A stretch of 64,000 bases of DNA from Roseateles sp. XES5 (GTDB lineage: Bacteria > Pseudomonadota > Alphaproteobacteria > Rhizobiales > Rhizobiaceae): assembly GCF_020535545.1 (NCBI RefSeq), contig NZ_CP084752.1, positions 1,781,501 to 1,845,500 on the forward strand. Reading direction: 5' to 3'. The position numbers were made by a program, and so were the translations under genes. The first letter of the stretch is position 1, and the number at the start of each line of letters is the position of its first letter. Under the pieces are notes generated by a model. It did no database searches. It had not been told where the DNA came from and saw only the letters and a program-made list of their open reading frames with translations. Shown piece after piece: positions 3,060-62,020 of this stretch.

Positions 3060-3953
3060 ATGAATGAAGACAACTCAAAGCGGCGTCTTGGCCGTGGTCT
3101 TGCCGCCCTGATCGGCGAGATGGACCAGCTTCCGGCCGCGGATGTCGGCGCACAGCCGTCGGTCAATCCGGACCGTCTGGTTCCGATCGAGTTCGTCGGC
3201 CGCAACCCGCGCAACCCGCGCCGCTATTTCGACGAATCGGAACTGCAGGATCTTGCCTCCTCGATCCGCCAGCATGGCATCGTCCAGCCGGTCGTCGTAC
3301 GCACCATCGCGGACAACCGGTATGAAATCATCGCCGGCGAGCGTCGCTGGCGGGCGGCGCAGCTGGCGGGTCTCACAGAGATTCCCGTTATCATTCGCGA
3401 TGTCGACGATCGTACGGCGCTAGAAATCGCCATCGTGGAAAACGTCCAGCGTTCGGACCTCAACCCGCTGGAAGAGGCGATGGGCTACGAGCTGCTGATC
3501 GCCGATCACGGTTACACACAGAACGATCTGGGTGAGATAATCGGCAAGAGCCGCAGCCACGTGGCCAACAGCCTGCGCCTTCTGAAACTGCCGGAGCCCG
3601 TGCGGGACATGCTGGCGTCCGGGACGCTTTCTGCCGGCCACGCCCGGGCACTGGTGCCGACGTCGGATCCGGTGGCGCTTGCCAAGACCATCGTGGCGAA
3701 GGGCATGTCGGTGCGCGATGCCGAGCGTATCGCGCAGAACGACATCAAGGCGCAGAGCGATCCCAATCACGGTCAGCCCGTCGCGCAGAAGGACGACAAG
3801 GATGCCGATACGCTGGCGCTGGAGCGTACGCTGTCGGATGTGCTGGGCCTTGACGTGACGGTCAACCACAAGGGCAATGGCGGCCACCTGCGGATCGCCT
3901 ACAAGACGCTCGAACAGCTTGAAGAAATCTGCCGGCTTCTTGAACGCCGGTAG
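3060..3953 (+). CDS. parB: Chromosome partitioning protein ParB (CTPase, parS-binding)
   Basis: ParB binds parS, hydrolyses CTP and slides as a clamp. The 297-residue protein shows the ParA-stimulating N-terminal segment LGRGLAALIGE (10-20), the CTP-binding motif GERRWRA (93-99), ENVQR (127-131), a helix-turn-helix around 153-176 and a C-terminal dimerisation tail. It follows parA, and three parS-like sites lie within 12 kb. Probable last gene of the mnmG-rsmG-parAB run; no strong terminator is seen in the 15 bases before the convergent holA. Confidence 0.96.
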   Translation: MNEDNSKRRLGRGLAALIGEMDQLPAADVGAQPSVNPDRLVPIEFVGRNPRNPRRYFDESELQDLASSIRQHGIVQPVVVRTIADNRYEIIAGERRWRAAQLAGLTEIPVIIRDVDDRTALEIAIVENVQRSDLNPLEEAMGYELLIADHGYTQNDLGEIIGKSRSHVANSLRLLKLPEPVRDMLASGTLSAGHARALVPTSDPVALAKTIVAKGMSVRDAERIAQNDIKAQSDPNHGQPVAQKDDKDADTLALERTLSDVLGLDVTVNHKGNGGHLRIAYKTLEQLEEICRLLERR

Positions 3954-3968: not shown

Positions 3969-5003
3969 TCAGCGCCGACCCGACTGAAGCACGGTCGCCA
4001 GCATTGTCTGCATGGCGATCGTATCTTCCAAGGCCGGGCGTTGCCGGCTTTGCAGGATGGCGGATTGCAGCCGCTGTGTTTCCCGGCGAATGGCCGGTCC
4101 CGTCCACGTCTTGAGCGCGTTTTCCACGATCGGCTTGCGCCGGAAGTGCAGGTGGCGGCCGAGCGTCGCCATTGCCTGCGCGGCCGGCGCGCGCTTCTCG
4201 TCCATTTCCGCGCGCATCAGCTCGAGAAGCTGGAACTGCCGCAGGCAGCCCTGCAGCACGAGGAAGACCGGGGTCTTCGAGGAAACGATCTTCTGGATCG
4301 CGTGCAGGAAACCGTCCCGGTCGCCCTTCAGGATCGCGTCGATGGCGTCATCGGTGGAAATCGCGCTGGCATCGCCGACGATCTCTTCCACGTCCTGCTC
4401 TTCGATGAGCGTCTTACCGCGGCAATAGAGGGCAAGCTTGCGCACCTCGTTGCGGGAGGCGAGCCGGTCGCCGCCAATGGTTTCCACGAGGCGTTCCCGG
4501 GCCGCTGGAGAAATTCTGAGGCCCTCGGCGGCGAGTTCCTGATCGATGAGTGCCTGCAAGGCACGGCCGTCGTCCGCGTAACAGGCGATGGCGACGACTT
4601 GGGAATGGGATTCCGCCACCTTGCGAAGCGCCGCACCCTTCTTCAGGTCGCCGGCCTCGATAAGGAGGGTGGAAGGGCCGGCCGGCGTTCCCGCCAGCAT
4701 CTCCAGGGCATCGGAAACCCCCTTTTCGCTGGCGGCATTGCGAATCCAGACGAGGCGATCGCCACCGAAGAGGCCGATGGCGTTCATCTCGTCCATGAGA
4801 CGGCCGGGCTGGCTGCCGATTTCGCCGGCATCGAGCTTCACGACGGAGAAGGCATCCGCAAGATCGACGCCACTGGCGGCGGCAAGCGCAGCGGCGCGTT
4901 CCGATACGAGGCCACGGTCTGGCCCGTAGACGAGGAACAGCCGCACGGGCAGAGGCTTCCGCTTCAGGAAGGCATCGAACTCGTGCGACTTGACCTCTGC
5001 CAT
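3969..5003 (-). CDS. holA: DNA polymerase III subunit delta HolA
   Basis: HolA is the clamp-loader wrench that opens the beta clamp. Start chosen at the ATG giving MAEVKSHEFDAFL, seven bases after the lptE stop; an upstream in-frame ATG would overlap lptE. The product is 344 residues, normal for the family, with the N-terminal AAA-like fold (LVYGPDRGLVSERA) lacking a functional Walker A, as usual for delta. It is co-oriented with leuS and lptE and is probably translated from their message. Confidence 0.93.
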   Translation of the reverse strand: MAEVKSHEFDAFLKRKPLPVRLFLVYGPDRGLVSERAAALAAASGVDLADAFSVVKLDAGEIGSQPGRLMDEMNAIGLFGGDRLVWIRNAASEKGVSDALEMLAGTPAGPSTLLIEAGDLKKGAALRKVAESHSQVVAIACYADDGRALQALIDQELAAEGLRISPAARERLVETIGGDRLASRNEVRKLALYCRGKTLIEEQDVEEIVGDASAISTDDAIDAILKGDRDGFLHAIQKIVSSKTPVFLVLQGCLRQFQLLELMRAEMDEKRAPAAQAMATLGRHLHFRRKPIVENALKTWTGPAIRRETQRLQSAILQSRQRPALEDTIAMQTMLATVLQSGRR

Positions 5004-5010
5004 AGCCGGC

Positions 5011-5535
5011 TCAGCGACGAGCGAGCGCCGTCGCGACATCCGCGCGGATCAGCTCGGCAAGCTCACGCGCGCCACGGTTTTCCGCATCGCGCTTTGCGCG
5101 AAGCTTGGCGAATTCCTGCGGCGAGAAATCGACGACGGCAACGGCCGAGCGCTTGCCGGAGGTGATCGTTTCGCCGGAGTCTGACTTCGTGAGGTTATAG
5201 TCCGCCGTAACGATGACGCGGCCGGCGCGATCGATGTCCGTCGTGACGTCGTTCAGAACGCCAACGGTCTTGACGCTTACGTCCATCTCCAGGTGATAGG
5301 CAGCAGACTGGGTTTCGCCGGCGCCGCCGCTGAAGAGGAAGATCAGGTCGTTGCGGACCTGCTGCTCCACGCGGTCGTCCGCCTCGGAAATGGAAACGGA
5401 GGCAAGTTTGCCCTCTGTGCCGCTTTCGGTGGAATAGAGCGGCCGCACCTGGCAGCCGGCGAGCGCGCCGACAAGCGCGATGCCGGCGAGCACCTTGACG
5501 AGCCGCGGAAGGCCGATTCCGTCAGACAACAACAT
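5011..5535 (-). CDS. lptE: LPS assembly lipoprotein LptE
   Basis: LptE plugs the outer-membrane LptD barrel that inserts lipopolysaccharide. The 174-residue protein has a hydrophobic signal segment ending in a lipobox LAGC (about residues 25-28), so the mature protein starts at the Cys and is acylated. The start overlaps the leuS stop by 14 bases. The position leuS-lptE-holA is conserved in many Proteobacteria, which supports the call since LptE diverges quickly. Confidence 0.9.
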
Positions 5536-8152
5536 TCACGATCCTCTGCGGTACGACGATGATCTTCTTGGGGTGTTGGCCGGCAAGCACAGCCTGAACC
5601 GCCTCGAGCGCGAGCACGGCCTGTTCGACCGCACTCTGGTCCGCATCGCGGGCGATTGTCAAATCCGCGCGCTTCTTGCCGTTGATCTGCACGGGCAGCG
5701 TGATCTCGTTTTCGGCAACCAGCCGGTCCTCGTAGGCGGGCCAGCCGGCCGTGGCGACGAGACCTTCGCCACCGATTTCGCGCCAGCACTCTTCCGAAAG
5801 ATGGGGCGTCATCGGCGCGACGATGCGAATGAGGATGCCGACGGCCTCGCGCAGCGCGGAAACCAGTTCCGGCGCTGCCTTGCCGCTTGCCGCGGTGGCC
5901 AGCGGGGCCGCCAGCGCGTTGACGAATTCGTAGATGCGCGCGACGGCCTTGTTGAAGGCGAGCTTGTCGTAATCGCCCTGCACGGCCTTCAAGGTCTTGT
6001 GGGCGATCTGCGAGACGGTGAGCGCTTCGCCGTCCGTGCCCGGGCGGCTTTCGGCGCCCCTCAGCACCGGCGCGGCTTCCGAGACGAGACGCCAGACGCG
6101 CTGGACGAAGCGGTGTGCGCCTTCGACGCCGGCTTCCGACCAGATGACGTCACGGTCCGGCGGAGAGTCGGACAGAACGAAGAAGCGGGCCGTATCGGCG
6201 CCGTAGGAGGCGATGATATCGTCGGGATCGACGACGTTCTTCTTCGACTTCGACATCTTTTCGATCGAGCCGATGGCGATTTCTTCGCCGGATTCGAGAT
6301 GCAGCGCACGGCGCTTGCCGTCGACATCCTCGATGCGGATCTCGGCCGGCGTCACCCATTCGCGCTTGCCGTCGACGGCGCGGCTATAGGTTTCATGCAC
6401 GACCATGCCCTGCGTGAAGAGACCCTTGAAGGGTTCCTTCAGGTCGAGATGGCCTGCGACCTGCATGGCGCGGGTGAAGAAGCGCGAATAGAGCAGGTGC
6501 AGGATCGCATGCTCGATGCCGCCGATATACTGGTCGACCGGCAGCCAGGCATTCGCGGCGGCCGGGTCCGTCGGGTCGTTTTCCCACGGCGCGGTGAAGC
6601 GGGCGAAGTACCAGGACGAATCGACGAAGGTGTCCATCGTATCCGTCTCGCGGCGCGCGTCCTTGCCGCAATGCGGGCAGGCGACGTGGCGCCAGGTCGG
6701 ATGACGGTCGAGCGGGTTGCCCGGCTTGTCGAAGGTGACGTCGTCGGGCAGCTTGACCGGCAGGTCGGCCTTCGGCACGGGAACCACGCCGCAGTCCTCG
6801 CAATGGATGACCGGGATCGGGCAGCCCCAGTAGCGCTGGCGCGAAATGCCCCAGTCGCGCAGGCGGAAGTTCACCTTGCGCTCGCCCACGGGCGCATTGC
6901 CCAGCGTGGCCGCCGTGAGGCGCCTTGCGACCTCCTCGAAGGCTTCCTCCGTGCCGAGGCCGTCGAGGAAGCGGGAATTGATCATCACGCCGTCGCCGAC
7001 ATAGGCCTCGTCGGCAATGGCGAAGGTGGCGGCATCGCCGTCCTTCGGCATGACGACGGGCACGACCGGCAGGTCGTATTTGCGGGCGAAGTCGAGGTCG
7101 CGCTGGTCGCCGGAGGGGCAGCCGAAAATGGCGCCCGTGCCGTAATCCATCAGCACGAAGTTCGCGATATAGACCGGCAGCTCCCAGCTGGGATCGAAGG
7201 GATGGCGGACGCGCAGGCCCGTATCCATGCCCTTCTTCTCGGCGGTTTCGAGCGCGGCGAGCGAGGTGCCGGCACGGCGGCATTCCTCGCAGAACGCCAT
7301 GATCTCGGCGTTCTTGGCGGAGACGTCCCTGGCCAGCGGATGATCGGCCGAGATCGCCAGGAACGAGGCGCCGAACAGCGTGTCGGGACGGGTCGTGTAG
7401 ACGGTGACGTCCTTCTCGCCCGTCAGGCCGGCAGCGTCGGCGATTTCCCAGCGGACCAGCATGCCTTCGGAGCGACCGATCCAGTTCTTCTGCATCAACC
7501 GGACCTTTTCCGGCCACTGGTCGAGGGTCTCGAGCGAATCGAGCAGGTCCTGGCTGAAGTCGGTGATGCGGAAGAACCATTGGGTCAGTTCACGCTTCTC
7601 GACCAGGGCGCCGGAGCGCCAGCCGCGGCCGTCGATCACCTGCTCATTGGCCAGCACGGTCTGGTCCACCGGGTCCCAGTTCACGACCTGGGTGCGGCGC
7701 TCGGCGATGCCCTTCTCCAGCATCTTCAGGAACAGCCACTGGTTCCACTTGTAGTACTCGGGCTGGCAGGTGGCAATTTCGCGCGACCAGTCGATCGCCA
7801 GGCCCATGGCCTGCATCTGCGACTTCATGTAGGCGATATTCGAGTAGGTCCACTGTGCCGGCGGCACCTTGCCCTTCATGGCGGCGTTCTCGGCCGGCAG
7901 GCCGAAGGCGTCCCAGCCCATGGGCATGAGCACGTTGAAACCACGGGCACGCTTGTAGCGGGCGACGACGTCGCCCATCGCGTAGTTGCGCACATGGCCC
8001 ATATGGATGCGGCCCGAGGGATAGGGGAACATCTCGAGGACGTAGTACTTTTCGCGCGGATCGTCGTTCTTGGTCAGGAAGACGCTGTCGTCATTCCATT
8101 TTGCCTGCCAGCGGGGTTCGGCATCGCGCGGATTGTAACGTTCGGTGGCCAT
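5522..8152 (-). CDS. leuS: Leucyl-tRNA synthetase LeuS (mosaic gene)
   Basis: LeuRS charges tRNA-Leu and edits misacylated products. The ATG giving [10 protein letters not shown] is the family start; the 876-residue length is normal. HMGH is at residues 50-53, and KMSKS lies in the C-terminal half ([12 protein letters not shown]). The C terminus [10 protein letters not shown] is rhizobial. Residues about 72-186 are unlike Rhizobiaceae Leu[15 protein letters not shown] and [16 protein letters not shown] are the wording of Burkholderiales enzymes, and CTG and GTG codons dominate there. Editing and catalytic blocks look intact, so the enzyme may well work. Confidence 0.96.
7595..7940 (-). other. 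Betaproteobacteria-like patch inside leuS
   Basis: Over roughly 115 codons, read on the minus strand, the codons shift to CTG, GTG and CCC, and the protein matches what I know of Burkholderiales LeuS ([41 protein letters not shown]) rather than Rhizobiaceae LeuS, which has ERGVHPASWTY and a YYQ.QQHLFLDF type block. Both edges fall in stretches conserved between the two groups, so exact breakpoints cannot be given. Confidence 0.75.
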
Positions 8153-8362
8153 GTCTTTGATGTTCCGGAAGTCTTTTGGAGGTTTTGGCGGGCGGTTCGC
8201 CCATGCGAATATGGTGCCGAGACCTTCATCATGAAACCGCCGGAGCGTCAAGTTTTCCGGTCCCGCGCGGGCTGGCGCTTGGCAAGCGGCGCCGTTTTCG
8301 CTAGGTGCGGGAAACGGCCGCACGCTCGCGCGTGTCCCTATTTTCGCCGATGGAGAATGACC

Positions 8363-9022
8363 ATGCAGCTTCAGGACCGTCTCGACGAGGTTCGCAACCG
8401 GATGGGCAAGGCGGCGGCGGAAGCCGGCCGGAAGCCGGAAGCGGTCACGCTCGTCGCTGTGTCGAAGACTTTCGATGCGGACGCCATTCGTCCCGCCATC
8501 GCCGCAGGCCAGCGTGTCTTCGGCGAGAACCGCGTCCAGGAGGCGCAGGGCAAGTGGCCGACGCTTCGGGACGAGACGGCCGGCATCGAACTGCATCTGA
8601 TCGGACCGCTGCAGTCCAACAAGGCAGCGGAGGCGGTGGCGCTGTTCGACGTCATTGAGACGGTCGACCGGGAGAAGATCGCGCGGGCGATTGCCGCGGA
8701 GATGACGCGGCAGGCACGCGCGGTGCGGCTTTATGTCCAGGTCAATACCGGGCTGGAGCCGCAGAAGGCCGGCATTGCGCCCGACGATACGGTCGCCTTC
8801 GTTTCCTTCTGCCGCGACGAGCTCGGCCTCACCGTCGAGGGGCTGATGTGCATTCCCCCTGCGGACGAAAATCCCGGCCCGCATTTCGCGCTCCTCGGCA
8901 AGCTTGCGGCGCGCTGCAATCTCGACAAGCTGTCGATGGGCATGTCGGGCGACTATGATGTCGCCATCGGCTTGGGTGCGACGAGCGTTCGCGTCGGTTC
9001 GGCGATTTTCGGCACGCGCTGA
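8363..9022 (+). CDS. YggS/PROSC family pyridoxal-phosphate homeostasis protein
   Basis: This family binds PLP in a TIM-barrel without known catalysis and keeps free PLP and keto-acid pools in balance. The 219-residue protein contains LVAVSKTF with the PLP lysine near residue 37, [22 protein letters not shown] and [27 protein letters not shown]. Of two close ATGs (8357, 8363) the second is chosen because GGAG at 8352 then has a seven-base spacing. It is divergent from leuS across a 210-bp gap. Confidence 0.93.
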
Positions 9023-9156
9023 TCCCGGCTTGACGAAGCGCAAGGGCGGGCCGGCCCGTTTCAGGCTTTCGTCTGGCTTTGCGGAAGGAGCGCCCTCCCC
9101 TATTCTCCCTGCTGGAGGAACCGGCCGCCTGGCGGCCGGGCATGCGGGAGGATGCG

Positions 9157-11913: not shown

Positions 11914-12143
11914 GGATATAGTCCTTCTGTCCGTCCGCGCCGGTGTCGCGGGCCGTGGGGTGTAACCACTATTTTCCGGGAATTGCGCCCTCTATAACTC
12001 CACTGTCGCAGAAATGCAATTCTTCAAGCGCAAATGACCTTTTGTCTAATTGCCGGAAGACTTTGACCTGATATGAATGGGCCAGGAAGTGCCGCGGTCG
12101 GAGGAGACACGGCCGTGTGTATGTGCAGTCTAGGGAGGAATCC

Positions 12144-14111
12144 ATGTCCGCAAAGACCTATCCGGTCCTGAAATCCGCAAAAAGCCGCACGCTGATCGAC
12201 AACGAGACCTATCAGAAATGGTATCGCGAAAGCGTCGAGAACCCGGAGCGTTTCTGGGACAAGCACGGCATGCGGATCGACTGGTTCAAGCCCTACACCA
12301 AGGTCAAGAATACGTCCTTCAGCGGCAAGGTGCCGATCAAATGGTTCGAGGACGGCATCACCAACGTCTCCTACAACTGTATCGACCGGCACCTGAAGGC
12401 GCATGGCGATCAGGTCGCCATCATCTGGGAAGGCGACAATCCCTATATCGACAAGAAGATCACCTATAACGAGCTCTACGAACACGTCTGCCGCATGGCC
12501 AACGTGATGAAGAAGCACGGGGTGAAGAAGGGCGACCGCGTCACCATCTACATGCCGATGATCCCGGAAGCGGCCTATGCCATGCTCGCCTGCGCGCGCA
12601 TCGGCGCCGTGCATTCCGTCGTCTTCGGCGGTTTCTCGCCGGATGCGCTGGCCGGTCGTATCGTCGACTGCGAATCGACCTTCGTCATCACCTGCGACGA
12701 AGGCGTGCGCGGCGGCAAGCCGATCCCGCTCAAGGAAAACACCGACACGGCCATCGACATCGCCGCCAAGCAGCATGTCATCGTCAACAAGGTTCTGGTC
12801 GTGCGCCGCACCGGCGGCAAGACCGGCTGGGCGCCGGGCCGCGACATCTGGCATCACCAGGAAGTGCTGACCGTGCCGCGCGATTGTCCGCCGGCCAAGA
12901 TGAAGGCGGAAGACCCGCTCTTCCTGCTCTACACCTCGGGCTCTACCGGCAAGCCCAAGGGCGTGCAGCACAGCACCGGCGGCTATCTGCTGCATGCGGC
13001 CCTGACCACCAAGTGGACCTTCGACCTCAAGCCCGATGATGTGTTCTGGTGCACGGCCGATATCGGCTGGGTCACGGGCCACACCTACATCAGCTACGGC
13101 CCCCTGGCCCTGGGCGGCACCGAGATCGTGTTCGAGGGCGTGCCCACCTACCCGGATGCCGGCCGCTTCTGGCAGATGATCCAGAAGCACAAGGTCTCCA
13201 TCTTCTACACCGCGCCCACGGCCATCCGCTCCCTGATCAAGGCGGCCGAGACCAATGAGGCGGTGCATCCCAAGAACTACGACCTGACAAGCCTGCGCCT
13301 GCTGGGCTCGGTGGGCGAGCCCATCAACCCCGCCGCCTGGGAGTGGTATCACCAGCATGTGGGCGGCAGCCGCTGCCCCATCGTGGACACCTTCTGGCAG
13401 ACCGAGACCGGCGGCCACATGATCACGCCGCTGCCGGGCGCCACGGACCTCAAGCCCGGCTCGGCGACACGGCCGTTCTTCGGCATCAAGCCGCAGCTCG
13501 TCGACAACGAGGGCAACGTGCTGGAGGGGCCGGCCGACGGCAATCTGTGCATCGTCGATAGCTGGCCGGGCCAGATGCGCACCGTCTACGGCGACCACAA
13601 GCGCTTCGTCGAAACCTATTTCTCCACCTATAAGGGCAAGTACTTCACCGGCGACGGCTGCCGGCGCGACGAAGACGGCTACTACTGGATCACCGGCCGC
13701 GTCGACGACGTGCTCAACATTTCGGGCCACCGTCTCGGCACGGCGGAAATCGAATCGGCGCTCGTCTCGCACCACCTCGTTTCGGAAGCCGCCGTCGTCG
13801 GCTACCCGCACAGCCTCAAGGGCCAGGGCATCTATTGCTATGTCTCGTTGATGGCCGGCGAAGAAGGTACGGATGCGCTGCGCCAGGACCTCGTCAAGCA
13901 CGTCCGCAAGGAAATCGGCCCCATCGCCTCGCCGGACAAGATCCAGTTCGCGCCCGGCCTGCCGAAGACCCGCTCGGGCAAGATCATGCGCCGCATCCTG
14001 CGCAAGATCGCCGAGGACGATTTCGGCGCGCTCGGCGACACCTCGACGCTGGCCGATCCGGCGGTGGTGGACGACCTTATCGCCAACCGGCAGAACAAGG
14101 CGGCCGGTTGA
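12144..14111 (+). CDS. acs: Acetyl-CoA synthetase Acs (mosaic gene)
   Basis: Acs converts acetate, ATP and CoA to acetyl-CoA via acetyl-adenylate. The ATG at 12144 is preceded by AGGGAGGA; the product is 655 residues, normal for Acs. Motifs: [43 protein letters not shown] and [11 protein letters not shown] with the acetylation-sensitive lysine. Residues about 298-438 carry betaproteobacterial wording ([30 protein letters not shown]) and CTG/CCC-rich codons; from [13 protein letters not shown] onward the sequence is rhizobial again. A hairpin terminator follows the stop. Confidence 0.96.
13035..13455 (+). other. Betaproteobacteria-like patch inside acs
   Basis: Between about 13035 and 13455 codon use changes abruptly to CCC, GGC, CTG, GTG and GAG, and protein wording changes to the Burkholderiales type. 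Rhizobial Acs has [20 protein letters not shown] and a shorter segment after TAIRSL; here it is [21 protein letters not shown]. Flanks on both sides are rhizobial in codons and protein. Edges lie in conserved stretches and are approximate. Confidence 0.75.
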
Positions 14112-22026: not shown

Positions 22027-25000
22027 TCACTTCGCCCTTTCCTGCGCAAGGTCGCTCAGGATGCCGGCGGCGACGCTGACCTTGGCGAGCGTCGCTTCGC
22101 CCGTTTCCGTCAGCGCCGAGAGGTTCGCCGTCACGCGGGCAAGCCGCTCCTTCTCCGCCTGCTGCCAGGCGGCAAGCGGGGCCTTGTCGCCCTTGTGGCG
22201 GGCAAGCACGGCGCTTGCGAGGTCGCGGCGGGCATTGGCGATGTCGGTGAGGCTGCGCTGCAAGGCGAGCGCCTCATAGAGATCGCCGGTTGGAATGCGG
22301 CCCGCCGCCGAGAGCAGACGGCCGATGTTCAGCGCCGAGCTGATGCCGGCGAAGGTTTGCGCCGTCTTGCCGAGCGTATCGCCGGTGGCATTGGCGATCA
22401 GCATGACCTCGGGCACGAAGGTGAGCATGGAGAGCGTGGCGATCTCTTCCGCCAGCTCGCCCGGAACGCCTTCGTCCTCATAGGCATGGGCCTTGCGGCG
22501 GGCCTCGTCGCCGGCGGCTTCCGAAACCAGCGTCGCAAGGTTGGGGCGAAGCTGCTTCAGCGCCTGCTTGAGCTTGTGCACGGCCTGATCCATCGGGCCG
22601 GCGACCGCGCCGGTCGTCAGCAGCAGGCTGGTGACGGAGGCGTAGATGCGGCCGATCTCCTCGTAGAGCTCGTTCTGCACCGCGCCCGACACCACGTTGT
22701 CCAGCGCATCGACGCCGGCATAGAGCGTTGCCAGGCCGTAGCCATCACGGGCGATGATCGCCGCCTTCACCGCATCGGCGGAGCCGAAGCCGGTGCCGTC
22801 GGTCAGGGTGTTGACGAAGGCCGGGCCGCCGCGATTGATCACCTCGTTGGCGAGGATCGTCGCGATGATCTCGCGGCGCAGGCGATGCGAACGGATATCG
22901 TCCGCATGCGCCTTCTGCATCTTCGCCGGGAAGTAACCCGTCAGCGTCGGTTCGAAATAGGGCTCGTCCGGCAGGTTCGTGTGGATCAGTTCATCGAACA
23001 GCACCAGCTTGGCATAGGAGAGCAGCACGCCGATCTCCGGCCGCGTCAGCGGCTTGCCGGCCTGGTAGCGCTCTGCGACGGTGCGGTCGTCGGGCAGAGT
23101 CTCGACCTTGCGGTTGAGCTGGCCGGCGGCCTCGAAGCGATCCATCAGGCGCGTCAGCGGCGCGCGGTTGGCCGTGCCCTGCCGTTCCGTCAGCGAGATC
23201 GCCAGTGACTGCAGGTAGTTGTTGCGCAGCACGAGATGGGCCACCTCGTCCGTCATCGAGGCAAGCAGCACGTTGCGCTTGGCGCGCGTCAACCGCTCGT
23301 CGCGCATGGCCGAGGCGAGCGCGATCTTGATGTTGACCTCGACGTCCGACGAGTTCACGCCGGCCGAGTTGTCGATGGCGTCGGAATTGCTGCGTCCGCC
23401 CTTGAGGCCGAAGGCGATGCGGCCGCGCTGGGTGACGCCGAGATTGGCGCCCTCGCCGATCACCTTGGCACGCACGTCCTCGCCGACGATGCGGATCGGG
23501 TCGTTGGCGCGGTCGCCCACTTCCGCGTCCGTCTCGTTCTGGCCGCGGATATAGGTGCCGATGCCGCCGAACCACAGCAGGTCGACCGGGGCCTTGAGGA
23601 TCGCCGTCATGATTTCGAACGGCGTTGCCTTGGGCTTGTCGAGGCCGATCACGGCCATGGCTTCCGGCGTCAGCGTCACGGATTTTTCCGTACGCGGAAT
23701 GATCATCGCGCCCTTGGAGAGGACCGAGCGATCATAGTCCTGCCAGCTCGAGCGCGGCAGGTTGAACATGCGGCGGCGCTCGGCAAAGGACGTGTCGGTA
23801 TCCGGATTCGGATCGATGAAGATGTCGCGGTGGTCGAAGGCCGCGACGAGGCGAATCTTGCGCGACAGCAGCATGCCGTTGCCGAAGACGTCGCCAGACA
23901 TGTCGCCGACGCCGGCGACGGTGAACGGCGTCTTCTGGATGTCGATGTTCATCTCGCGGAAGTGGCGCTTGACGGTTTCCCAGCCGCCGCGGGCGGTGAT
24001 GCCCATCTTCTTGTGGTCGTAGCCGGCCGAGCCGCCCGACGCAAAGGCGTCGTCGAGCCAGAAGCCGGCTTCCTGGGCCAGCCCGTTCGCCGTGTCGGAG
24101 AAGGTCGCGGTGCCCTTGTCGGCGGCGACGACGAAATAGGGGTCGTCCCCGTCGATGCGCACGGTATCGGCCGGCGGCACGACGTCCTGGCCGACGATGT
24201 TGTCGGTGACGGAGAGCAGCGTGCGGATATAGGTCTTGTAGGCTTCGGTGCCGGCCTTGAAGACGGCGTCGCGGCTGCCGCCGACGGGAAGCTGCTTGGG
24301 ATAGAAGCCGCCCTTGGCGCCGACCGGCACGATGACCGAGTTCTTCACCTGCTGCGCCTTCACGAGGCCCAGCACTTCCGTGCGGTAGTCCTGCGCGCGG
24401 TCGGACCAGCGCAGGCCGCCGCGAGCGACCTTGCCGAAGCGCAGGTGCACGCCTTCCACTTCCGCGCCATAGACGAAGATTTCGCGGAAGGGGCGCGGCT
24501 CCGGCAGGCCGTCGAGGGCCTTCGGATCGAGCTTGATCGCCAGCGTCTTGCGCGGCTTGCCGTCCGCATCCTTCTGGAAATAGTTCGTGCGCAGCGTCGC
24601 CTCGATGGCATTGACGCAGCGGCGGAGCATCCGGTCCTCGTCGAGGCTCGGCACGTTTGCCAGCGCTTCCTCGATGGCCGCGGCCACCTCGGCAGACTTC
24701 TTCTCGCGCTGGCGATCCGAAAGCTTCGGATCGAGACGGGTCTCGAACAGGCGGAAGAGGTTCGCGGCGATGGCCGGATATTTGTTCAGCGTATCGGCGA
24801 TGTAGCCTTGCGAATAGGCGATGCCCGTCTGGCGCAGGTAACGCGAATAGGTGCGTAGCGCCATGATCTCGCGCGCCGAAAGGCCGGCGGTGAGGATCAG
24901 GCGGTTCAGCGCGTCGTCGTCCACCTCGCCGTGCCAGGCCGCGAGGAAGGCTTCCTCCAGGATCGGGCTCAGCTTGGCAAGGTTCACTTCCTGGCCGTCG

Positions 25001-26808
25001 CGCTGCTTCAGCTCCATGTCATGCAGGATGACGCGGCGCTGCTTGCCGTCGAGGCCGACGAGCGTCAGGTCGTGCGTCTGCTCGCTGACGACGTTGAAGC
25101 CGAGGTTTTCGAGCAGCGGGACGCGCTGCGAGAGCGAAACCGGCTCGCCGGCATGGAAGATCTTCAGTTCGACGGAGGTGAGATCCGTGTTCCAGGCCTT
25201 GCGGTAGAAGGCGATGCTGATCGGGTTTTCCGCCGTTGCCGTGGTGATCAGCGCAAGATCCGCATGGGCTTCGGCCGGAGTGAAGTCTTCCTGATAGCCG
25301 CGGTCGGTGTCGAGGCGCACGCCATCGGCATTGGACAGGGCCTCGAAACGGTCGGTCCAGCGCGTCGCGATCTCGCGCACCGCCTGTTCCAGCTTCGGCT
25401 GCGGAATGCGCGGCGTCTTGCCGCCGGAGCGGCCGATGATGAAGTGCACGCGGGCAAGGCCGCCTTCCGGGAAGGCCGGATAGTAAGCCGAGACACGGCC
25501 GTCGTAAGCCGACTTCAGATAGTTGCCGATCTTCTCGCGCACGTCCGAATCGTACTGCTCGCGCGGCACGTAGACGATCACAGAAACGAAGCGGTCGAAG
25601 CGGTCGATGCGCGGCAGGACGCGGATGCGTGGCCGGTCCGAGAGTTCGTTGATCTGTTCGCAGAAGCTGGCGAGCAGGCCTGTGTCGATCTGGAAGAGAT
25701 CGTCACGCGGATAGGATTCCAGCGTGTTGATCAGCATCTTGCCGGAATGGCTCTTCGGGTCGTAGCCGAAATGCTCGACGACCGCCTCCACCTTGGAGCG
25801 CAGGAGCGGAATCTGGCCGGCGGCATGGGTATAGGCGGTGGAGGTGAAGAGGCCGACGATGCGCAGTTCGCCGATGACCTTGCCCTTCTCGTCGAAGCGC
25901 TTGAGGCCGACATAGTCCATATAGGCCCGGCGGTGCACGACGGATTTCACATTGGCCTTGGTGACGATGAGGAAATCCGGGCCTTCGAGGAATTCGAGAA
26001 TTTCCGGCGTCGTCGTCACGGCATCCTTGCCGAGGCGCAGCACGCGCACATCAGGATCGGAGAGAATGCCGAGGCCTTCGCCGCCGCGTTCCACGGTCGC
26101 CGCCTCGCCCTTGCCGGAATAGCTGTATTCCCGCATGCCGAGGAAGGTGAAGTTGTTGGCGCGCAGCCAGTCGAGGAAGGCGAGCGCCTCGTCCTTGCCG
26201 GGCTTCTCCTTGGCGTAACGGGCCATGTCGGCCATGGTGCTGTCGAGCTTTTCCAGCATGGACGGCCAGTCGTCGACGGCAAGGTGCACCTGGTTCAGCG
26301 CATTGCCGACGCGCTCGGCGAGGGAGGCGGCCTCGGCCGGCGCAAGTTCGGACAGATGGATCTCGATGTGGCTGACCCGGTGTGACGGATCGCTTTCCTC
26401 GTCCGGCGAGAAGAGCTTCGGCGCCTCGCCCGGCGCCACGACGAGGATCGGGTGGATCGCAAGGTGGATGTCGCGATGCGTGCTCGTCACTTCGCCCATG
26501 ACCGAATCGTAAAGGAACGGCTGGTTGCGGTCGGTGACGGAGAGGACGGAGACCGGCTGGCCCTGCGGCTTCACGTCGGTAAGCGTGGTGACGGTGACGC
26601 GCGGCGCGCTGCCGTCCCAGGCCTCGATTTCGGCCATGGCATGGGCGGCTGCTGCGGCCAGCATCTCACCCGTATAGTGCTCGATATCGTCCTTGCTGGC
26701 ACGCCCGAAAAGGATGTCCGGGTTGAGCGTCTTTGCGCCGAGGGCGGCTGCTGCGGCCTTTGCGGCCTCGATGTGTTTTTCTCGTTTCATATTGGTCCTG
26801 GCACCCAT
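22027..26808 (-). CDS. gdhB: NAD-specific glutamate dehydrogenase, large (~180 kDa) type
   Basis: The enzyme oxidises glutamate to 2-oxoglutarate and ammonia. At 1,593 residues it belongs to the large GDH class known from Caulobacter, Pseudomonas and Streptomyces, with a long N-terminal ACT-containing regulatory part and catalytic domain in the third quarter (GAKGGFYPKQLP, DVVPPADTVRIDGDDPYFV, SGGSAGYDHKKMG, GDMSGDVFGNGML). Start MGARTNMKREK has AGGGAGAA upstream; an in-frame open stretch further upstream lacks coding character and covers the divergent pdxY. The symbol is by analogy and less certain than the product. Confidence 0.94.
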   Translation of the reverse strand: MGARTNMKREKHIEAAKAAAAALGAKTLNPDILFGRASKDDIEHYTGEMLAAAAAHAMAEIEAWDGSAPRVTVTTLTDVKPQGQPVSVLSVTDRNQPFLYDSVMGEVTSTHRDIHLAIHPILVVAPGEAPKLFSPDEESDPSHRVSHIEIHLSELAPAEAASLAERVGNALNQVHLAVDDWPSMLEKLDSTMADMARYAKEKPGKDEALAFLDWLRANNFTFLGMREYSYSGKGEAATVERGGEGLGILSDPDVRVLRLGKDAVTTTPEILEFLEGPDFLIVTKANVKSVVHRRAYMDYVGLKRFDEKGKVIGELRIVGLFTSTAYTHAAGQIPLLRSKVEAVVEHFGYDPKSHSGKMLINTLESYPRDDLFQIDTGLLASFCEQINELSDRPRIRVLPRIDRFDRFVSVIVYVPREQYDSDVREKIGNYLKSAYDGRVSAYYPAFPEGGLARVHFIIGRSGGKTPRIPQPKLEQAVREIATRWTDRFEALSNADGVRLDTDRGYQEDFTPAEAHADLALITTATAENPISIAFYRKAWNTDLTSVELKIFHAGEPVSLSQRVPLLENLGFNVVSEQTHDLTLVGLDGKQRRVILHDMELKQRDGQEVNLAKLSPILEEAFLAAWHGEVDDDALNRLILTAGLSAREIMALRTYSRYLRQTGIAYSQGYIADTLNKYPAIAANLFRLFETRLDPKLSDRQREKKSAEVAAAIEEALANVPSLDEDRMLRRCVNAIEATLRTNYFQKDADGKPRKTLAIKLDPKALDGLPEPRPFREIFVYGAEVEGVHLRFGKVARGGLRWSDRAQDYRTEVLGLVKAQQVKNSVIVPVGAKGGFYPKQLPVGGSRDAVFKAGTEAYKTYIRTLLSVTDNIVGQDVVPPADTVRIDGDDPYFVVAADKGTATFSDTANGLAQEAGFWLDDAFASGGSAGYDHKKMGITARGGWETVKRHFREMNIDIQKTPFTVAGVGDMSGDVFGNGMLLSRKIRLVAAFDHRDIFIDPNPDTDTSFAERRRMFNLPRSSWQDYDRSVLSKGAMIIPRTEKSVTLTPEAMAVIGLDKPKATPFEIMTAILKAPVDLLWFGGIGTYIRGQNETDAEVGDRANDPIRIVGEDVRAKVIGEGANLGVTQRGRIAFGLKGGRSNSDAIDNSAGVNSSDVEVNIKIALASAMRDERLTRAKRNVLLASMTDEVAHLVLRNNYLQSLAISLTERQGTANRAPLTRLMDRFEAAGQLNRKVETLPDDRTVAERYQAGKPLTRPEIGVLLSYAKLVLFDELIHTNLPDEPYFEPTLTGYFPAKMQKAHADDIRSHRLRREIIATILANEVINRGGPAFVNTLTDGTGFGSADAVKAAIIARDGYGLATLYAGVDALDNVVSGAVQNELYEEIGRIYASVTSLLLTTGAVAGPMDQAVHKLKQALKQLRPNLATLVSEAAGDEARRKAHAYEDEGVPGELAEEIATLSMLTFVPEVMLIANATGDTLGKTAQTFAGISSALNIGRLLSAAGRIPTGDLYEALALQRSLTDIANARRDLASAVLARHKGDKAPLAAWQQAEKERLARVTANLSALTETGEATLAKVSVAAGILSDLAQERAK

Positions 26809-27075
26809 GGAATTCTCCCTCGAATCCGATGGCCGGGACGTTAGCAGAAGAAAAAATACGCGCGACGAAATTTGTGCGTTTGCGAGAAAATTCAATCGAT
26901 TTTGTCCGGAATAGGTCAGTTTTGCTGTCGTTTTGTCGTGAAATTCATGATTTTTCGTCGAAAAGTAGCCCAAAACCGGCCTGAACCGCTCAATCCGGTC
27001 ATTTCCCAAGAGAACCGAATGTTGACAGAAAAGGACCCCCTTGCGATCACTTCGGCCAAGCGAAGGGAGCCGGCT

Positions 27076-27951
27076 ATGCACGACAGCGACAAGGGCACGG
27101 TCATCGTCATTTCGAGCCATGTGGTGCGTGGAACGGTGGGCAACCGCGCCGCTGTCTTCGCACTCGAAACGCTCGGCCACCCTGTCTGGGCGCTGCCCAC
27201 CGTCATCCTGCCCTGGCATCCCGGCCATGGCCGCGCGACCCGCATTCCGCTCGCGGCCGACGATTTCGACGCGGTCGTTTCCGATCTCATTCGCGCGCCC
27301 TGGCGCGGCGAGGTGAAGGCGGTGCTGACCGGCTATCTCGGAAGTGCGGACCAGGCCCGCTCGGTGGCGCGGCTTGTCGAGAGCCTCAGGGCCGACAATC
27401 CCGACCTTCTCTATATGTGCGATCCCGTCTGCGGGGACGAGCGTGGCCTCTATGTGCCGGAGGAGACGGCGGTGGCGATCCGCGATAGCCTGATCCCGCT
27501 CGCCTCCATTGCCACGCCGAACCGCTTCGAACTGTCCTGGCTCGCCGGTGCGCCGCTGGAGACCAATGCGGCGATCGTCGACGCGGCGCTGTCGCTCGGT
27601 CCGGCCCGCATGCTCGTCACGTCGGCGCATCCGCTGATGGTCGGCAGTACCGGCAACCTCTATCTGTCCGGCCGCAGCGCGCTTCTGGCCGAACACCGCC
27701 TCGTGCCCAACCCGCCGAACGGCACCGGCGACCTGCTGTCGGCCATTTTTCTCTCGCGGGTGATGGAGGGCTTGGCCGACGAGCGCGCTTTGATGAGCGC
27801 GACGGCCAGCGTTTTCGAGATCGTCGCGCGCACCGCCAAGCGCGGCGCCGACGAATTGACGCTGGAGCAGGACGCGTCCAGCATCTCGACCCCGATGGCC
27901 ATGGTGCACATGCGCCGCCTCATGCATCCGGCGCAAACGCGCCGGCCGTAA
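27076..27951 (+). CDS. pdxY: Pyridoxal kinase (PdxY/PdxK-like)
   Basis: Phosphorylates B6 vitamers in the PLP salvage pathway; ribokinase superfamily. 291 residues from an ATG with AAGGGAG upstream. SSHVVRGTVGNRAA and LPTVILPWHPGHG match the N-terminal substrate region, DPVCGDERGLYV the central block, ATPNRFEL the acceptor region and NPPNGTGDLLSAIFL the GTGD anion-hole with catalytic Asp. Divergent from the NAD-GDH gene across a 267-bp, unusually AT-rich gap (26809-27075) that must hold both promoters. Confidence 0.9.
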   Translation: MHDSDKGTVIVISSHVVRGTVGNRAAVFALETLGHPVWALPTVILPWHPGHGRATRIPLAADDFDAVVSDLIRAPWRGEVKAVLTGYLGSADQARSVARLVESLRADNPDLLYMCDPVCGDERGLYVPEETAVAIRDSLIPLASIATPNRFELSWLAGAPLETNAAIVDAALSLGPARMLVTSAHPLMVGSTGNLYLSGRSALLAEHRLVPNPPNGTGDLLSAIFLSRVMEGLADERALMSATASVFEIVARTAKRGADELTLEQDASSISTPMAMVHMRRLMHPAQTRRP

Positions 27952-31308: not shown

Positions 31309-33198
31309 ATGGCTAATGTTTCGACCGTGGGCAACGCCAAGTCGGCGCCGATGACGGCCGAGGAAAAGAAGGTCATCTTCGCCTCCTCGCTCGGCACGGT
31401 GTTCGAGTGGTACGACTTTTACCTCTACGGCTCCTTGGCGGCCATCATCGCCAAGCAGTTCTTCGCTGGCCTTGATGCCGGCTCGGCCTTCATCTTCGCC
31501 CTGCTGGCCTTTGCCGCGGGCTTCATCGTGCGCCCCTTCGGCGCCCTGGTGTTCGGCCGTCTGGGCGACATGATCGGTCGCAAGTACACCTTCCTGGTGA
31601 CCATCCTGATCATGGGCCTGTCGACCTTCATCGTCGGCATCCTGCCCACCTACAACTCGATCGGCGTGGCCGCTCCGGTGATCCTGATCGCCCTGCGTCT
31701 GCTGCAGGGCCTGGCCCTGGGCGGCGAGTACGGCGGTGCTGCCACCTATGTGGCCGAGCACGCGCCGCACGGCCGTCGCGGCGCCTTCACTTCCTGGATC
31801 CAGACCACCGCGACCCTGGGCCTGTTCCTGTCGCTGATGGTGATCCTGGGCACCCGCACCTGGGTGGGTGAGGAAGCCTTTGCGGACTGGGGCTGGCGCG
31901 TGCCTTTCCTGGTGTCCATCCTGCTGCTGGGCATCAGCGTGTGGATCCGCCTGTCCATGAACGAGTCGCCCGCCTTCAAGAAGATGAAGGCCGAGGGCAA
32001 GACCTCCAAGGCACCGCTGTCCGAGTCCTTCGGCCAGTGGAAGAACCTGAAGATCGTGATCCTGGCCCTGATCGGCCTGACCGCCGGCCAGGCCGTGGTC
32101 TGGTACACGGGCCAGTTCTACGCCCTGTTCTTCCTGACGCAGTCGCTGAAGGTGGACGGTGCGACCGCCAACATCATGATCGCGATCTCGCTGATCATCG
32201 GCACGCCTTTCTTCGTGATCTTCGGCTCGCTGTCGGACAAGATCGGCCGCAAGCCCATCATCATGGCCGGCTGCCTGCTGGCGGTGCTGACCTACTTCCC
32301 GCTGTTCCAGGCCCTGACCAACGCCGCCAACCCCGACCTGGCTGCTGCCCAGGCCAAGGCCAAGGTGACCGTCAATGCCGACCCGGCCGAGTGCTCCTTC
32401 CAGTTCAACCCGACCGGCACGGTGAAGTTCACCAGCTCCTGCGACATCGCGACGTCGTTCCTGACCCGCAACTCGGTGCCCTATGACGTCGTTTCGACGG
32501 CGGCGGCCGGCACGGCCGCCACGGTCAAGATCGGTGAACAGACGATCTCCAGCTACGACGCGGTCGCAGCGGGCGATCAGGCCAAGGGCCTCGATGCGGC
32601 CTTCCAGAAGCAGACCAACATAGCGCTTCACGATGCCGGCTATCCGCTGGTCCGCGGCGCTGCGAAGGTTCCGGACGCCAAGCTCGACGCCTTCGTCGCC
32701 GCCAACCCGGAACTGAAGCTCGATGCAGCGGCTATCCGTGCCGGCGAAAAGGCGACCATGCCGGCCGCCGATCTCGTTTCCGGCAAGCTGCTGACGGCCG
32801 ATGAAGCCAATGGCGTCACCGACATGGCCGTCTACACGATTGCCGGCGGCGGCGCCTATACCATGGTCGCCGATCCGGCCAACGTGAACTGGATCACGAT
32901 CATCGCCGTGCTGACCGTGCTCGTGATCTACGTCACGATGGTCTATGGCCCGATTGCCGCCCTGCTGGTCGAACTCTTCCCGACCCGCATCCGCTACACC
33001 GGCATGTCGCTGCCCTATCATATCGGCAACGGCTGGTTCGGCGGCCTGCTTCCGGCAACGGCCTTCGCGATGAGTGCGGCCCAGGGCGATATCTACTACG
33101 GCCTCTGGTACCCCATCGTCTTCGCGGGCATCACCCTCGTCATCGGCCTTCTCTTCCTGCCGGAAACGAAGGACCGCGACATCCACGCCATGGATTGA
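31309..33198 (+). CDS. MHS-family MFS transporter with large periplasmic insert (mosaic gene)
   Basis: A proton symporter-type permease of the metabolite:H+ symporter family (relatives carry citrate, proline betaine, shikimate or dicarboxylates); substrate unknown. The ATG at 31309 has GGAGG upstream; length 629 residues, well above the usual 430-550. FGRLGDMIGRKYTF and LSDKIGRKPIIM are the two MFS loop signatures. A ~185-residue insert (about 338-524) sits between transmembrane segments in the C-terminal half, presumably in the periplasm. Codons from about 31450 to 32460 are betaproteobacterial in style, then rhizobial. Confidence 0.9.
   Translation: MANVSTVGNAKSAPMTAEEKKVIFASSLGTVFEWYDFYLYGSLAAIIAKQFFAGLDAGSAFIFALLAFAAGFIVRPFGALVFGRLGDMIGRKYTFLVTILIMGLSTFIVGILPTYNSIGVAAPVILIALRLLQGLALGGEYGGAATYVAEHAPHGRRGAFTSWIQTTATLGLFLSLMVILGTRTWVGEEAFADWGWRVPFLVSILLLGISVWIRLSMNESPAFKKMKAEGKTSKAPLSESFGQWKNLKIVILALIGLTAGQAVVWYTGQFYALFFLTQSLKVDGATANIMIAISLIIGTPFFVIFGSLSDKIGRKPIIMAGCLLAVLTYFPLFQALTNAANPDLAAAQAKAKVTVNADPAECSFQFNPTGTVKFTSSCDIATSFLTRNSVPYDVVSTAAAGTAATVKIGEQTISSYDAVAAGDQAKGLDAAFQKQTNIALHDAGYPLVRGAAKVPDAKLDAFVAANPELKLDAAAIRAGEKATMPAADLVSGKLLTADEANGVTDMAVYTIAGGGAYTMVADPANVNWITIIAVLTVLVIYVTMVYGPIAALLVELFPTRIRYTGMSLPYHIGNGWFGGLLPATAFAMSAAQGDIYYGLWYPIVFAGITLVIGLLFLPETKDRDIHAMD
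31450..32460 (+). other. Betaproteobacteria-like patch inside the MHS transporter gene
   Basis: Roughly 1 kb of this gene is dominated by CTG, GTG, CCC and GAG codons (for example the stretch around 31680-31860), whereas the first ~100 bases and everything after about 32480 use the rhizobial pattern of CTC, GTC and GAA/TCG. The change occurs within the insert domain at residues ~380-390. Edges are approximate. Confidence 0.7.
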
Positions 33199-35726: not shown

Positions 35727-36332
35727 TTACGCCCAGGGACGCGAGGTTGCGGTCTGCTTCTCGAACGTGTCGATGGAGGTCGCCTTTTCCAGCGTCAGGC
35801 CGATATCGTCGAGCCCGTTCAGCAGGCAGTGGCGGCGGAAGGCGTCGATTTCGAAGCCGATGCGGCCGCCGTCGGGACCGGTGATTTCCTGGGTTTCCAG
35901 GTCGACCGTCAGGATGGCGTTGGAGCCGCGGCTGGCGTCGTCCATCAGCTTGTCCAGGTCGTCCTGGCTGACGACGATGGGCAGGATGCCGTTCTTGAAA
36001 CAGTTGTTGTAGAAGATGTCGGCGAAGCTGGTGGAGATGACGCAGCGGATGCCGAAGTCGAGCAGGGCCCACGGCGCATGCTCACGCGAGGAGCCGCAGC
36101 CGAAATTGTCGCCGGCGACGAGGATCGTGGCATTCTGGTAGGCCGGCTTGTTCAGCACGAACGTTTCGTTGACGCTGCCGTCCTCGTTGTAGCGCGCTTC
36201 GGCGAAGAGGCCCTTGCCGAGACCCGTGCGCTTGATCGTCTTGAGGTAGTCCTTCGGAATGATCATGTCCGTGTCGACATTGACTACGGGAAGCGGCGCG
36301 GCGACGCCGGTCAGCTTGACGAACTTTTCCAT
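35727..36332 (-). CDS. leuD: 3-isopropylmalate dehydratase small subunit LeuD
   Basis: With LeuC isomerises isopropylmalate. The ATG giving [24 protein letters not shown] is the family start; 201 residues is normal. [14 protein letters not shown] is the aconitase swivel-domain signature. The leuC gene is not in the window, as is usual in rhizobia, where leuC and leuD are separate. Confidence 0.95.
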
Positions 36333-52897: not shown

Positions 52898-52987
52898 GGA
52901 GAGGTGGCAGAGTGGTCGAATGCACCGCACTCGAAATGCGGCATACCTGCAAGGGTATCGTGGGTTCGAATCCCACCCTCTCCGCCA
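52898..52987 (+). tRNA. tRNA-Ser (anticodon CGA)
   Basis: A complete 90-base class II tRNA with encoded CCA: acceptor GGAGAGG/CCTCTCC, anticodon stem CCGCA/TGCGG with loop CTCGAAA (anticodon CGA, reads UCG), a long variable arm and T-arm GGGTTCGAATCCC. Its 3' side borders an integrase relic, making it the attachment gene of a decayed integrated element. Confidence 0.96.
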
Positions 52988-53133
52988 TTTCCCCTCGGTT
53001 TCCATTCGCATAGTTTCCCAGCGCTCTTTGAAGGCGCGCGGTTTTTCGTGCTTTCTCTTTCCAATATTTCCCATACGTGCTCACCGCATCCTGCGCATTT
53101 TCGGCCAGGACTGCGGTCATCGACGATAGGAAA

Positions 53134-53320
53134 TATGGTACCTTCGTTTTCGCTACCGCTGCAACGGCAAGGAAAAGCCCTTTGCGCTCGGCACATATCC
53201 TGATGTGTCGTTGCTGATGTGCGGCAGGGGCGGGAGGGAGCGAAGCGGATTTTCAAATCTGACCGCGCTCTCAGGGCCATACGTATGTTTATCGCTGCAG
53301 GGGCACGGGAGAAACGATAG
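53134..53320 (+). pseudogene. Relic of a tRNA-targeting tyrosine integrase (P4-type N-terminal domain)
   Basis: One frame reads RFRYRCNGKEKPFALGTYP followed by DVSL, the DUF4102 arm-binding domain of P4-like integrases. After SL the sequence continues the family pattern only in another frame (ADVRQGREGAKR, from 53213 to the stop at 53320), which a single inserted G would restore. In-frame stops lie before it and the catalytic domain is missing. It lies about 150 bases past tRNA-Ser, where such integrases sit. Confidence 0.75.
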
Positions 53321-53325
53321 AGGCA

Positions 53326-54246
53326 ATGAAAAACCGATATGCCCAAATGCTTGAACAAGCCAGGCTACATGTCGCGGAAGGCGGGCTTGGAAAGAACGAC
53401 GCCTACGGGACATTTCCCACGGACCCCATTGCTGTTCATCTGCTGTATATAAAACCGGAACTGACCCCAAACGAGATTTATTGCGGTGCTTATCGCAGGT
53501 TGAAATATTCTGTTGTCGCCGATTACTATGGCTATCCTGCCTGGATTGTCGCGCTTCACGATGCGATTTTCTACGGCTTACCTCTCGCGGAGAGTCTTGA
53601 CTGGCATATCCAGATTGCCGAGACGATCGTTGCTTACGGAGAACGTGCTGATTGGCGTAAGGCGTTTCACCGGTCTCATATCGGCCTCCTGTCCATGGCC
53701 CTCGAAGCTATACCATCGACATACGTCGATCGGGTTGCACAAAGAGATGCTGTGCGCCGTGTCGCCACCCTGCATGAGATCGCCCTTGAGGGCGGCACGT
53801 TAAGCCGAACCGAATGGAATGAGGCCGCGGAAGTCGCATCGGCTCAATCCTATTTTATCACATACCCCGTAAACGGGCTCAACCATGCTGGTAGAGAAGC
53901 AGCTCGAGCTGCCCACTGCTCAGCGCAATGGTTTTCAGACGAAAAAGACGGTCTTGCGCATCCGGAACCCGAAAGAACACTAGACGCTGCTAATTGTGCT
54001 GCTTGTGCATCGGCATACGTCGTGCGCCACGGCGTCGAATGGAGTCATACACTTCCAATGTTGCAAGCTGAATGGCACCCAGGTGAATCCGTGCTGCCGT
54101 TCGTCGAAAACGTTATCGCTTATGAAAAGGCACGTTCGGAAGAGTATCACGCGGCACAAAGCGCATATGAAGCGGCGCTCGTTATAAACTACCAAAAAAT
54201 TCGCGATCTAACTCTGAGTGCTATTCGGGATGCAGCGTCTGGATAA
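53326..54246 (+). CDS. Hypothetical protein of the tRNA-Ser island
   Basis: 306 residues with no family I recognise. It looks wholly helical and soluble, with Ala-rich stretches (NHAGREAARAAH, ERTLDAANCAACASAY) and several Trp/Tyr/His-rich turns; no signal peptide or membrane segment. Base composition is visibly lower in GC than the neighbours and rare codons (ATA, TTA, AGA) occur, which with the integrase relic points to horizontal transfer. An immunity-type helical protein is conceivable but unproven. GAGGC precedes the ATG. Confidence 0.65.
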   Translation: MKNRYAQMLEQARLHVAEGGLGKNDAYGTFPTDPIAVHLLYIKPELTPNEIYCGAYRRLKYSVVADYYGYPAWIVALHDAIFYGLPLAESLDWHIQIAETIVAYGERADWRKAFHRSHIGLLSMALEAIPSTYVDRVAQRDAVRRVATLHEIALEGGTLSRTEWNEAAEVASAQSYFITYPVNGLNHAGREAARAAHCSAQWFSDEKDGLAHPEPERTLDAANCAACASAYVVRHGVEWSHTLPMLQAEWHPGESVLPFVENVIAYEKARSEEYHAAQSAYEAALVINYQKIRDLTLSAIRDAASG

Positions 54247-54267
54247 GAGAAAGAGCGCATGCGATGC

Positions 54268-54453
54268 TTAATCGGTGACCTCGTGATCTTTCCGTGAAAC
54301 TGTAATTCCGATCTGTGTTTCGGGAAGCGGTCCAATACGCTCCTCGTACAGCCGATAATACTCTGCAGTATATTTGGTGTGGAATTCACGCTGTGCCTCA
54401 CTGGACAGCTCGTCCCAGTTTGTTGGCATCACCATTGGTATCATTTTACTCAT
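54268..54453 (-). CDS. Small hypothetical protein of the tRNA-Ser island
   Basis: 61 residues: MSKMIPMVMPTNWDELSSEAQREFHTKYTAEYYRLYEERIGPLPETQIGITVSRKDHEVTD in outline, acidic, helical centre. Low-GC composition matches the neighbour, with which it is convergent. No homologue known to me; coding status rests on length and composition only. Confidence 0.4.
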   Translation of the reverse strand: MSKMIPMVMPTNWDELSSEAQREFHTKYTAEYYRLYEERIGPLPETQIGITVSRKDHEVTD

Positions 54454-54730
54454 AGCAACATTATGAATATTTATCCCATGCTAGGCAAGATTTTGATCCG
54501 CAGTCATACTGGCCAAGCTGCGATCGCCTTCATTCTGGCGTGCGTCGATTCATCCGGCACGGTCGCGTGATGCCCTCTCCATGGACGATCAAAAAGTACC
54601 GACGCTTTGCGATGCGCACGAGAAACGGTGCGAGACTCTTCGGCGGCTGTGGCCACAGCGTTTCTAAAGCAAATTGTCAGCCCTGGGTCTCGACAAGAAA
54701 ACTCTGCGCTGAAGAACATGACCGTAGAGA

Positions 54731-54786
54731 CAGCGGGGTGTCGAACGCACCGCACTCGAAATGCATCATATCCGCGAGTATATCGT
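54731..54786 (+). repeat. Degenerate tRNA-Ser fragment, probable distal attachment remnant
   Basis: The stretch repeats the D-arm/anticodon part of the tRNA-Ser at 52898: GCACCGCACTCGAAATGC is identical (18 bases), with weaker similarity through the variable arm to ATCGT. The anticodon stem 3' side is mutated (ATGCATC instead of TGCGG), so it is not a working tRNA. It marks the far end of the island. The rest of the gap 54454-54865 shows no gene. Confidence 0.7.
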
Positions 54787-61944: not shown

Positions 61945-62019
61945 GCCGGCGGAAACGCCGGCTCTTATACATTGCGAGGCCGGAGCATCGGTTATGATGC
62001 TCCGGCCTCGTTTGTCATT

Positions 62020-62020
<1 letters not shown>
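61945..62020 (+). terminator. purU terminator hairpins
   Basis: Two hairpins: GCCGGCG-GAAA-CGCCGGC (61945-61962) and a perfect 14-bp stem 61976-61989/61996-62009 (GAGGCCGGAGCATC, loop GGTTAT) followed by GTTTGTCATTT. The second is a good terminator; it may also mark the boundary of the insertion element. Confidence 0.75.

Follow-up and report, generated by a model that had tools for sequence, protein, structure and literature searches.

When individual genomes from metagenomes are polished, cross-mapping of conserved genes has been reported, as far as the accessible text of that study goes (PMC6854639). Together with a general remark in the available part of a paper on chimeric metagenome-assembled genomes (PMC10688829), this was the one direct precedent that our literature search, over the accessible portions of such papers, returned for the locus described here. 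The likeness to the polishing case would lie in foreign reads changing the calls in a conserved gene to which they align; in the portion of that report available, though, the outcome was spurious SNP calls between organelle genomes, whereas here blocks of hundreds of bases are exchanged between bacterial classes, in many genes and in rRNA. With the chimeric metagenome-assembled genomes our locus would share a published consensus that mixes several organisms, which in the accessible text are strains or closely related species and here belong to two classes. A third system, the natural transformation of B. subtilis (PMC13344027, excerpted text), likewise leaves multiple short discontinuous donor tracts close together, but the excerpt reports no distinction by overall percent identity, whereas the tracts described below come from a different class and conversion rises with local identity.

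The window (the whole stretch of DNA analysed, 64,000 nucleotides) holds a putative MHS-type transporter gene (Table 1), whose product matches two profiles of the major facilitator fold, PF00083 (130.1 bits, cut-off 22.3) and PF07690 (91 bits, cut-off 33.4). We call it MHS-type only, since its 354.4 bits against the NCBIfam metabolite/H+ symporter model TIGR00883 (best stretch residues 29-346) miss the curated cut-off of 443.45 bits; "MHS family" is the label of some database relatives. An orthologue spanning residues 1-628 or 1-629 was found in 19 of the 20 same-genus genomes searched, and none in the other (G006). The host genus appears to be Shinella-like, because the nearest match over residues 381-629, 95.2% identical there, is named Shinella sp.

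Table 1 Coordinates of the transporter gene, of the two other patched genes in the window and of their tracts.
Feature	Position in window	Strand	Details
MHS-type MFS transporter gene	31309..33198	+	629 aa; frame open through both switches
Genus-type (putatively Shinella-like) 5' end of transporter gene	31309..31341	+	8 genus-type sites, last at 31341
Beta tract in transporter gene	31348..32440	+	91.6% identical to G702; 86.3-90.2% to six others of G702's family
Genus-type 3' part of transporter gene, including most of the large insert	32453..33198	+	window identity and tree
acs (acetate--CoA ligase)	12117..14111	+	TIGR02188 and NF001208 above cut-off
Beta tract in acs	12927..13440	+	93.4% identical to G703, 90.9% to G702
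ORF holding leuS	5522..9043	-	TIGR00396 998.6 bits (cut-off 548.4); leuS match starts at frame residue 303
Beta tract in leuS	7601..7930	-	90.4% identical to G487, 89.0% to G702 and G703, over 7600-7900

The transporter gene is a mosaic in the deposited sequence. From codon use, the first-pass annotation had proposed a betaproteobacterial patch at 31450-32460 within a rhizobial gene, and homology bears the mosaic out through identity windows, a site-by-site comparison with the betaproteobacterial genome G702 and discordant trees. In overlapping 30-residue windows, we compared the protein with orthologues from the same genus (19) and from betaproteobacteria (36 of 37, L089 being left out for its cut frame). 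Over residues 31-360 (21 windows), identity reaches 83-100% for the best betaproteobacterial orthologue and 53-97% for the best genus member, which is the lower in 19 windows, the exceptions falling at residues 136-165 and 151-180. From residue 376 onward, the best genus member reaches 90-100% amino acid identity per window, and the betas reach 46-93% or fail to align. Own-genus identity at the nucleotide level across ~31348-32440 is 57-88% (mean per 90-bp window), and eleven 90-bp rows at 31399-32388 carry 138 beta-type against 20 genus-type sites. Informative beta-type sites relative to G702 run from 31350 to 32435 (the first 90 bp of the gene hold three, starting at 31350), with genus-type sites up to 31341, mixed sites at 32421-32453 and a predominance of genus-type sites from 32453 onward. 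The predicted 5' edge was thus about 100 bp late and the predicted 3' edge right within about 25 bp; the start and the last ~700 bases, said to look rhizobial, are indeed of genus type, and the 3' switch, said to lie inside the large insert, falls at the insert, where betaproteobacterial alignments begin to fail. Residues about 436-525 of the insert (window 32614-32883) are present in all 19 genus orthologues, and the betas fail to align to them.

FastTree protein trees of the two parts are discordant. With residues 15-372, the protein groups with the betas, in a clade of 14 made up of 12 betas, one other MAG and our own sequence (support 0.845); the next clade has a support of 0.377, and a clade of 34, which contains 31 of the 36 betas and no genus member, has a support of 0.933. 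With residues 385-629, all 19 genus tips and our own sequence form a clade (support 0.885). The beta tract was looked for in close relatives, as the first-pass annotation had proposed, and was found in none of the 19 genus orthologues, none of them conspecific, and in none of the 120 protein matches listed among 8000 scored, which speaks against a recombinant common to the genus. A second copy within this genome (G000) was likewise rejected as a source of gene conversion, the other matches there being at most 39% identical.

The nearest genome to the beta tract is G702 (91% over 31420-32420), the best among 299 genomes drawn from its family, f64. By blastn, the best of the 80 named loci kept are a Piscinibacter MAG (L114, 86.7%), Ideonella livida (L089, 86.4%) and Pelomonas (L100, 85.5%). 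The family probably belongs to the Burkholderiales, because one of its members, G304, shares 95.5% identity with the Piscinibacter MAG over 3425 bp and because G702, G487, G703 and G496 each have a betaproteobacterial record as their best named match. Of six tracts, five have G702, G487 or G703 as the best match and the sixth has G496, genomes that all belong to one family (4-7 of seven genomes compared per tract). The top genome varies between tracts, which are short, and the best genome is 90-96% identical per tract; a near-identical donor was not found among the beta genomes compared.

The transporter gene had been described as the third of three mosaics in 64 kb, all from the same kind of donor and far beyond chance. 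A scan of the alignable part of the window agrees, yielding three runs, in leuS, acs and the MFS gene, all nearer to betas; in acs, the best genus identity is 60-86% inside the tract and 91-98% outside it. The scan covered 464 kb of the chromosome against the sister genomes G003 and G008, marking 300-bp windows in which our genome departs while both sisters agree (4988 of 6183 windows alignable). This gave 27 runs (25 and 27 with other sister pairs), against 1-4 when the same rule was applied to control genomes, of which G017 and G003 do show a few runs themselves (four and three, the latter falling to one with another pair) and G008 shows one. All runs but one overlap script-called genes, and the remaining run lies in 23S rRNA; the genes named by profile include dnaK, malate synthase G, trpB, gyrB, rho, leuC, aconitase, sdhA, sucC and typA, and a further one encodes an FtsK-like protein, below its cut-off. 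Origin was compared for eight of the 27 runs, with gyrB and rho representing the profile-named genes just listed, and all eight (MFS gene, acs, leuS, gyrB twice, rho, SSADH and 23S) resemble betas more closely than the genus, the SSADH tract being just 86-91% like the betas compared. The SSADH-like gene (L157:2527-4002) accounts for two of the 27 runs; the sisters align to it at merely 61-64%, with matches far from the syntenic place, and perhaps lack an orthologue, so these two runs, which the count includes, may be paralogue misalignments. Fifteen tracts in seven loci are clean and measure 30-1440 bp (median 360), and extrapolation from the 464 kb gives roughly 300-340 tracts genome-wide.

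Other conserved genes, which the first-pass annotation had suggested checking, are patched as well: gyrB, rho, the rpoB locus, both tuf genes and the 16S and 23S rRNA. At one of the three rRNA loci, the 16S gene shares 93.8% identity with G702 across 1525 bp, individual 100-bp bins falling as low as 72% (same-genus 16S being masked in the sisters, the comparison is with betas only); 16S identity between classes is normally near 80-85%. In 23S, beta-type blocks (92-100% to G702 per 100-bp bin) alternate cleanly with genus-type blocks of up to 100% between and beside them, and the operon at L157:4300-10100 is beta-like in 16S and most of 23S and genus-like toward 5S. Across 3490-3538 bp that cover 23S, the other two loci match the first at 99% identity. 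In the rpoB locus, 20 of 47 bins are beta-type, forming four beta blocks, of which three reach into or lie in rpoB, with genus-type blocks in between; bins below ~67% identity are mostly genus-type, and single divergent bins are carried inside long tracts (3601-3750, 62%). The two tuf genes are patched at different places, leaving the pair 85.0% identical, against 97.1-99.7% in G003, G008, G017, G702 and G496. No such patch is present in mutS, where the frame is open, the profile cut-off is passed and 0 of 28 bins are beta-like.

Conversion depends on local identity. In 60 kb searched with overlapping, non-independent bins against the beta genomes (a set from which the genus loci L249 and L250 and the alpha loci L238 and L251 were removed), beta-type bins make up a growing share as local identity between genus and beta increases. 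From below 0.60 to above 0.90, successive counts were 0/70, 0/130, 6/142, 15/129, 47/83, 26/52, 9/9 and 1/1 with 150-bp bins, and 0/85, 1/112, 6/128, 21/127, 31/89, 38/73, 14/24 and 0/2 with 90-bp bins. Conversion is thus found in 0/200 and 1/197 bins below 0.65, in 83/145 (57%) and 83/188 (44%) at 0.75 or above, and in 10/10 and 14/26 at 0.85 or above (0/2 at 0.90 or above with 90-bp bins). Many tracts end at points of declining genus/beta identity. The relation has departures in both directions. At 0.78 or above, ten 150-bp blocks are unconverted, in SSADH, gyrB, rho, acs, the MFS gene (32891-33130), the frame at 22027-27936 and 35981-36130, and the rpoB locus is spared despite conservation at 4951-5250 (79-87%) and 5851-6000 (85%); conversely, codons 31-75 of the MFS gene (57-59%) and the divergent rpoB stretch already mentioned are converted.

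We consider it very probable that the transporter patch is artefactual, an error that contaminant reads introduced into the published consensus by overwriting conserved genes. The first-pass annotation had left the choice between a recombination-prone lineage and a mixed assembly; our data favour the second, in the form of block-wise overwriting by Burkholderiales-type reads, and disfavour the first. As a plausible mechanism, Shinella-type DNA would have been sequenced together with an abundant Burkholderiales-type organism (a mixed culture, a contaminated library or a metagenome bin), and during read correction or polishing, the presumed faulty step, contaminant reads would map onto the Shinella contigs at places where the two genomes share sufficient similarity across a few hundred bases. 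By outvoting the true reads, they would rewrite the consensus in place, leaving genes unmoved and frames unbroken; where local similarity is low, as in the transporter insert and the variable parts of rpoB, reads would no longer align and the true sequence would stay. The exchange would accordingly be the work of reads, not cells, which may come from a single donor organism, and the median tract length would be in keeping with short reads or with local alignments that were clipped. This reading is favoured because conversion rises with local alignability, as read recruitment does, because the affected sequences include the most conserved (rRNA, the rpoB locus, gyrB, both tuf genes and rho), and because the tuf copies differ, the best matches fall in one family and no relative examined carries the transporter patch. 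Replacement is in place where donor and host align, apart from the spared and the divergent but converted stretches. On the other side stand the varying top genome, the lack of a near-identical donor, the fair number of conserved blocks spared, an estimated completeness of 100 with a contamination of 0.15, and the fact that all frames are open, which selection would explain too.

The same open frames and clean tracts count in favour of a reading to which we give little credence, in which a Shinella-type lineage repeatedly took up Burkholderiales DNA and swapped short conserved housekeeping segments by massive homeologous recombination. Recombination also needs local identity, several conserved blocks are spared, and the donor segments left by natural transformation can be short, discontinuous and clustered, a pattern that MutS does not explain in the excerpted account (PMC13344027). 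It would, however, have to account for the extrapolated number of tracts, those tested all deriving from one family of another class, across a divergence of roughly 10-40%, whereas transformation in B. subtilis drops logarithmically with divergence up to 15%, according to the available part of that study (PMC6382021). The intact mutS removes relaxed mismatch repair through mutS loss, the divergence of the tuf pair is at odds with that in the five other genomes, and the transporter tract is confined to this genome among the relatives listed above; the three rRNA loci agree in their 23S genes, which gene conversion could however explain. Recombination would also be expected to affect a small fraction of the eligible blocks, to draw on many donors with preference for closer ones, and to bring divergent stretches with it. 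It retains a small probability because a near-identical donor was lacking, the top genome varies, blocks are spared and origin was compared for only part of the runs. Slightly less credible still is its full consequence, a living rhizobial lineage with a two-class mosaic core genome, in which hundreds of conserved segments, rpoB, tuf, gyrB and rRNA among them, were swapped with a Burkholderiales partner. If the tracts were true, present limits on recombination between bacterial classes would be overturned.

A chimera made by the assembler, with graph paths crossing between two genomes at common words and correction or polishing playing no part, seems more improbable than recombination. It too could yield in-place blocks of two genomes from one sample, but for every tract the path would have to cross twice within a single 4.03-Mb contig, which at a constant density amounts to hundreds of crossings, and each time come back to the Shinella locus; many tract ends, moreover, lie at drops in genus/beta identity. 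That there is no mosaic, and that codon use differs through the composition of the membrane and insert parts of the protein, is ruled out: AT skew does change sign near 32350, but the switch appears in sequence identity and trees, not in composition.

With overwriting of the consensus as the preferred reading, we regard the patch not as a real biological feature but as a useful data-quality case, because the quality scores given above miss the chimerism. A contamination score that relies on duplicated markers would not necessarily respond to in-place replacement; a local-identity scan against sister genomes does reveal it. Despite those scores, the widely used markers 16S, 23S, rpoB, gyrB and tuf are chimeric in the consensus, and a record of this kind could put the strain in the wrong part of marker trees, mimic transfer between classes and introduce possibly non-existent proteins into databases.

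Some further features of the window were noted. The mnmG gene (28-1596) was considered as a patch, its genus identity of 69-82% being below that of its neighbours, and rejected, since it is only 66-71% like betas over 491-1077. The large frame at 22027-27936 (minus strand), which we take to be an NAD-type glutamate dehydrogenase, matches no NCBIfam family at 1e-50 and has unconverted conserved blocks at 23771-24460; two of seven beta genomes match it over long stretches, and the donor may lack the gene. Two stretches, 53001-54750 and 62001-64000, went unmatched when compared with 80-kb segments from five sister genomes. The second may merely mark the end of synteny or of those segments; just before the first lies a tRNA gene (52898-52984), as with an inserted element.
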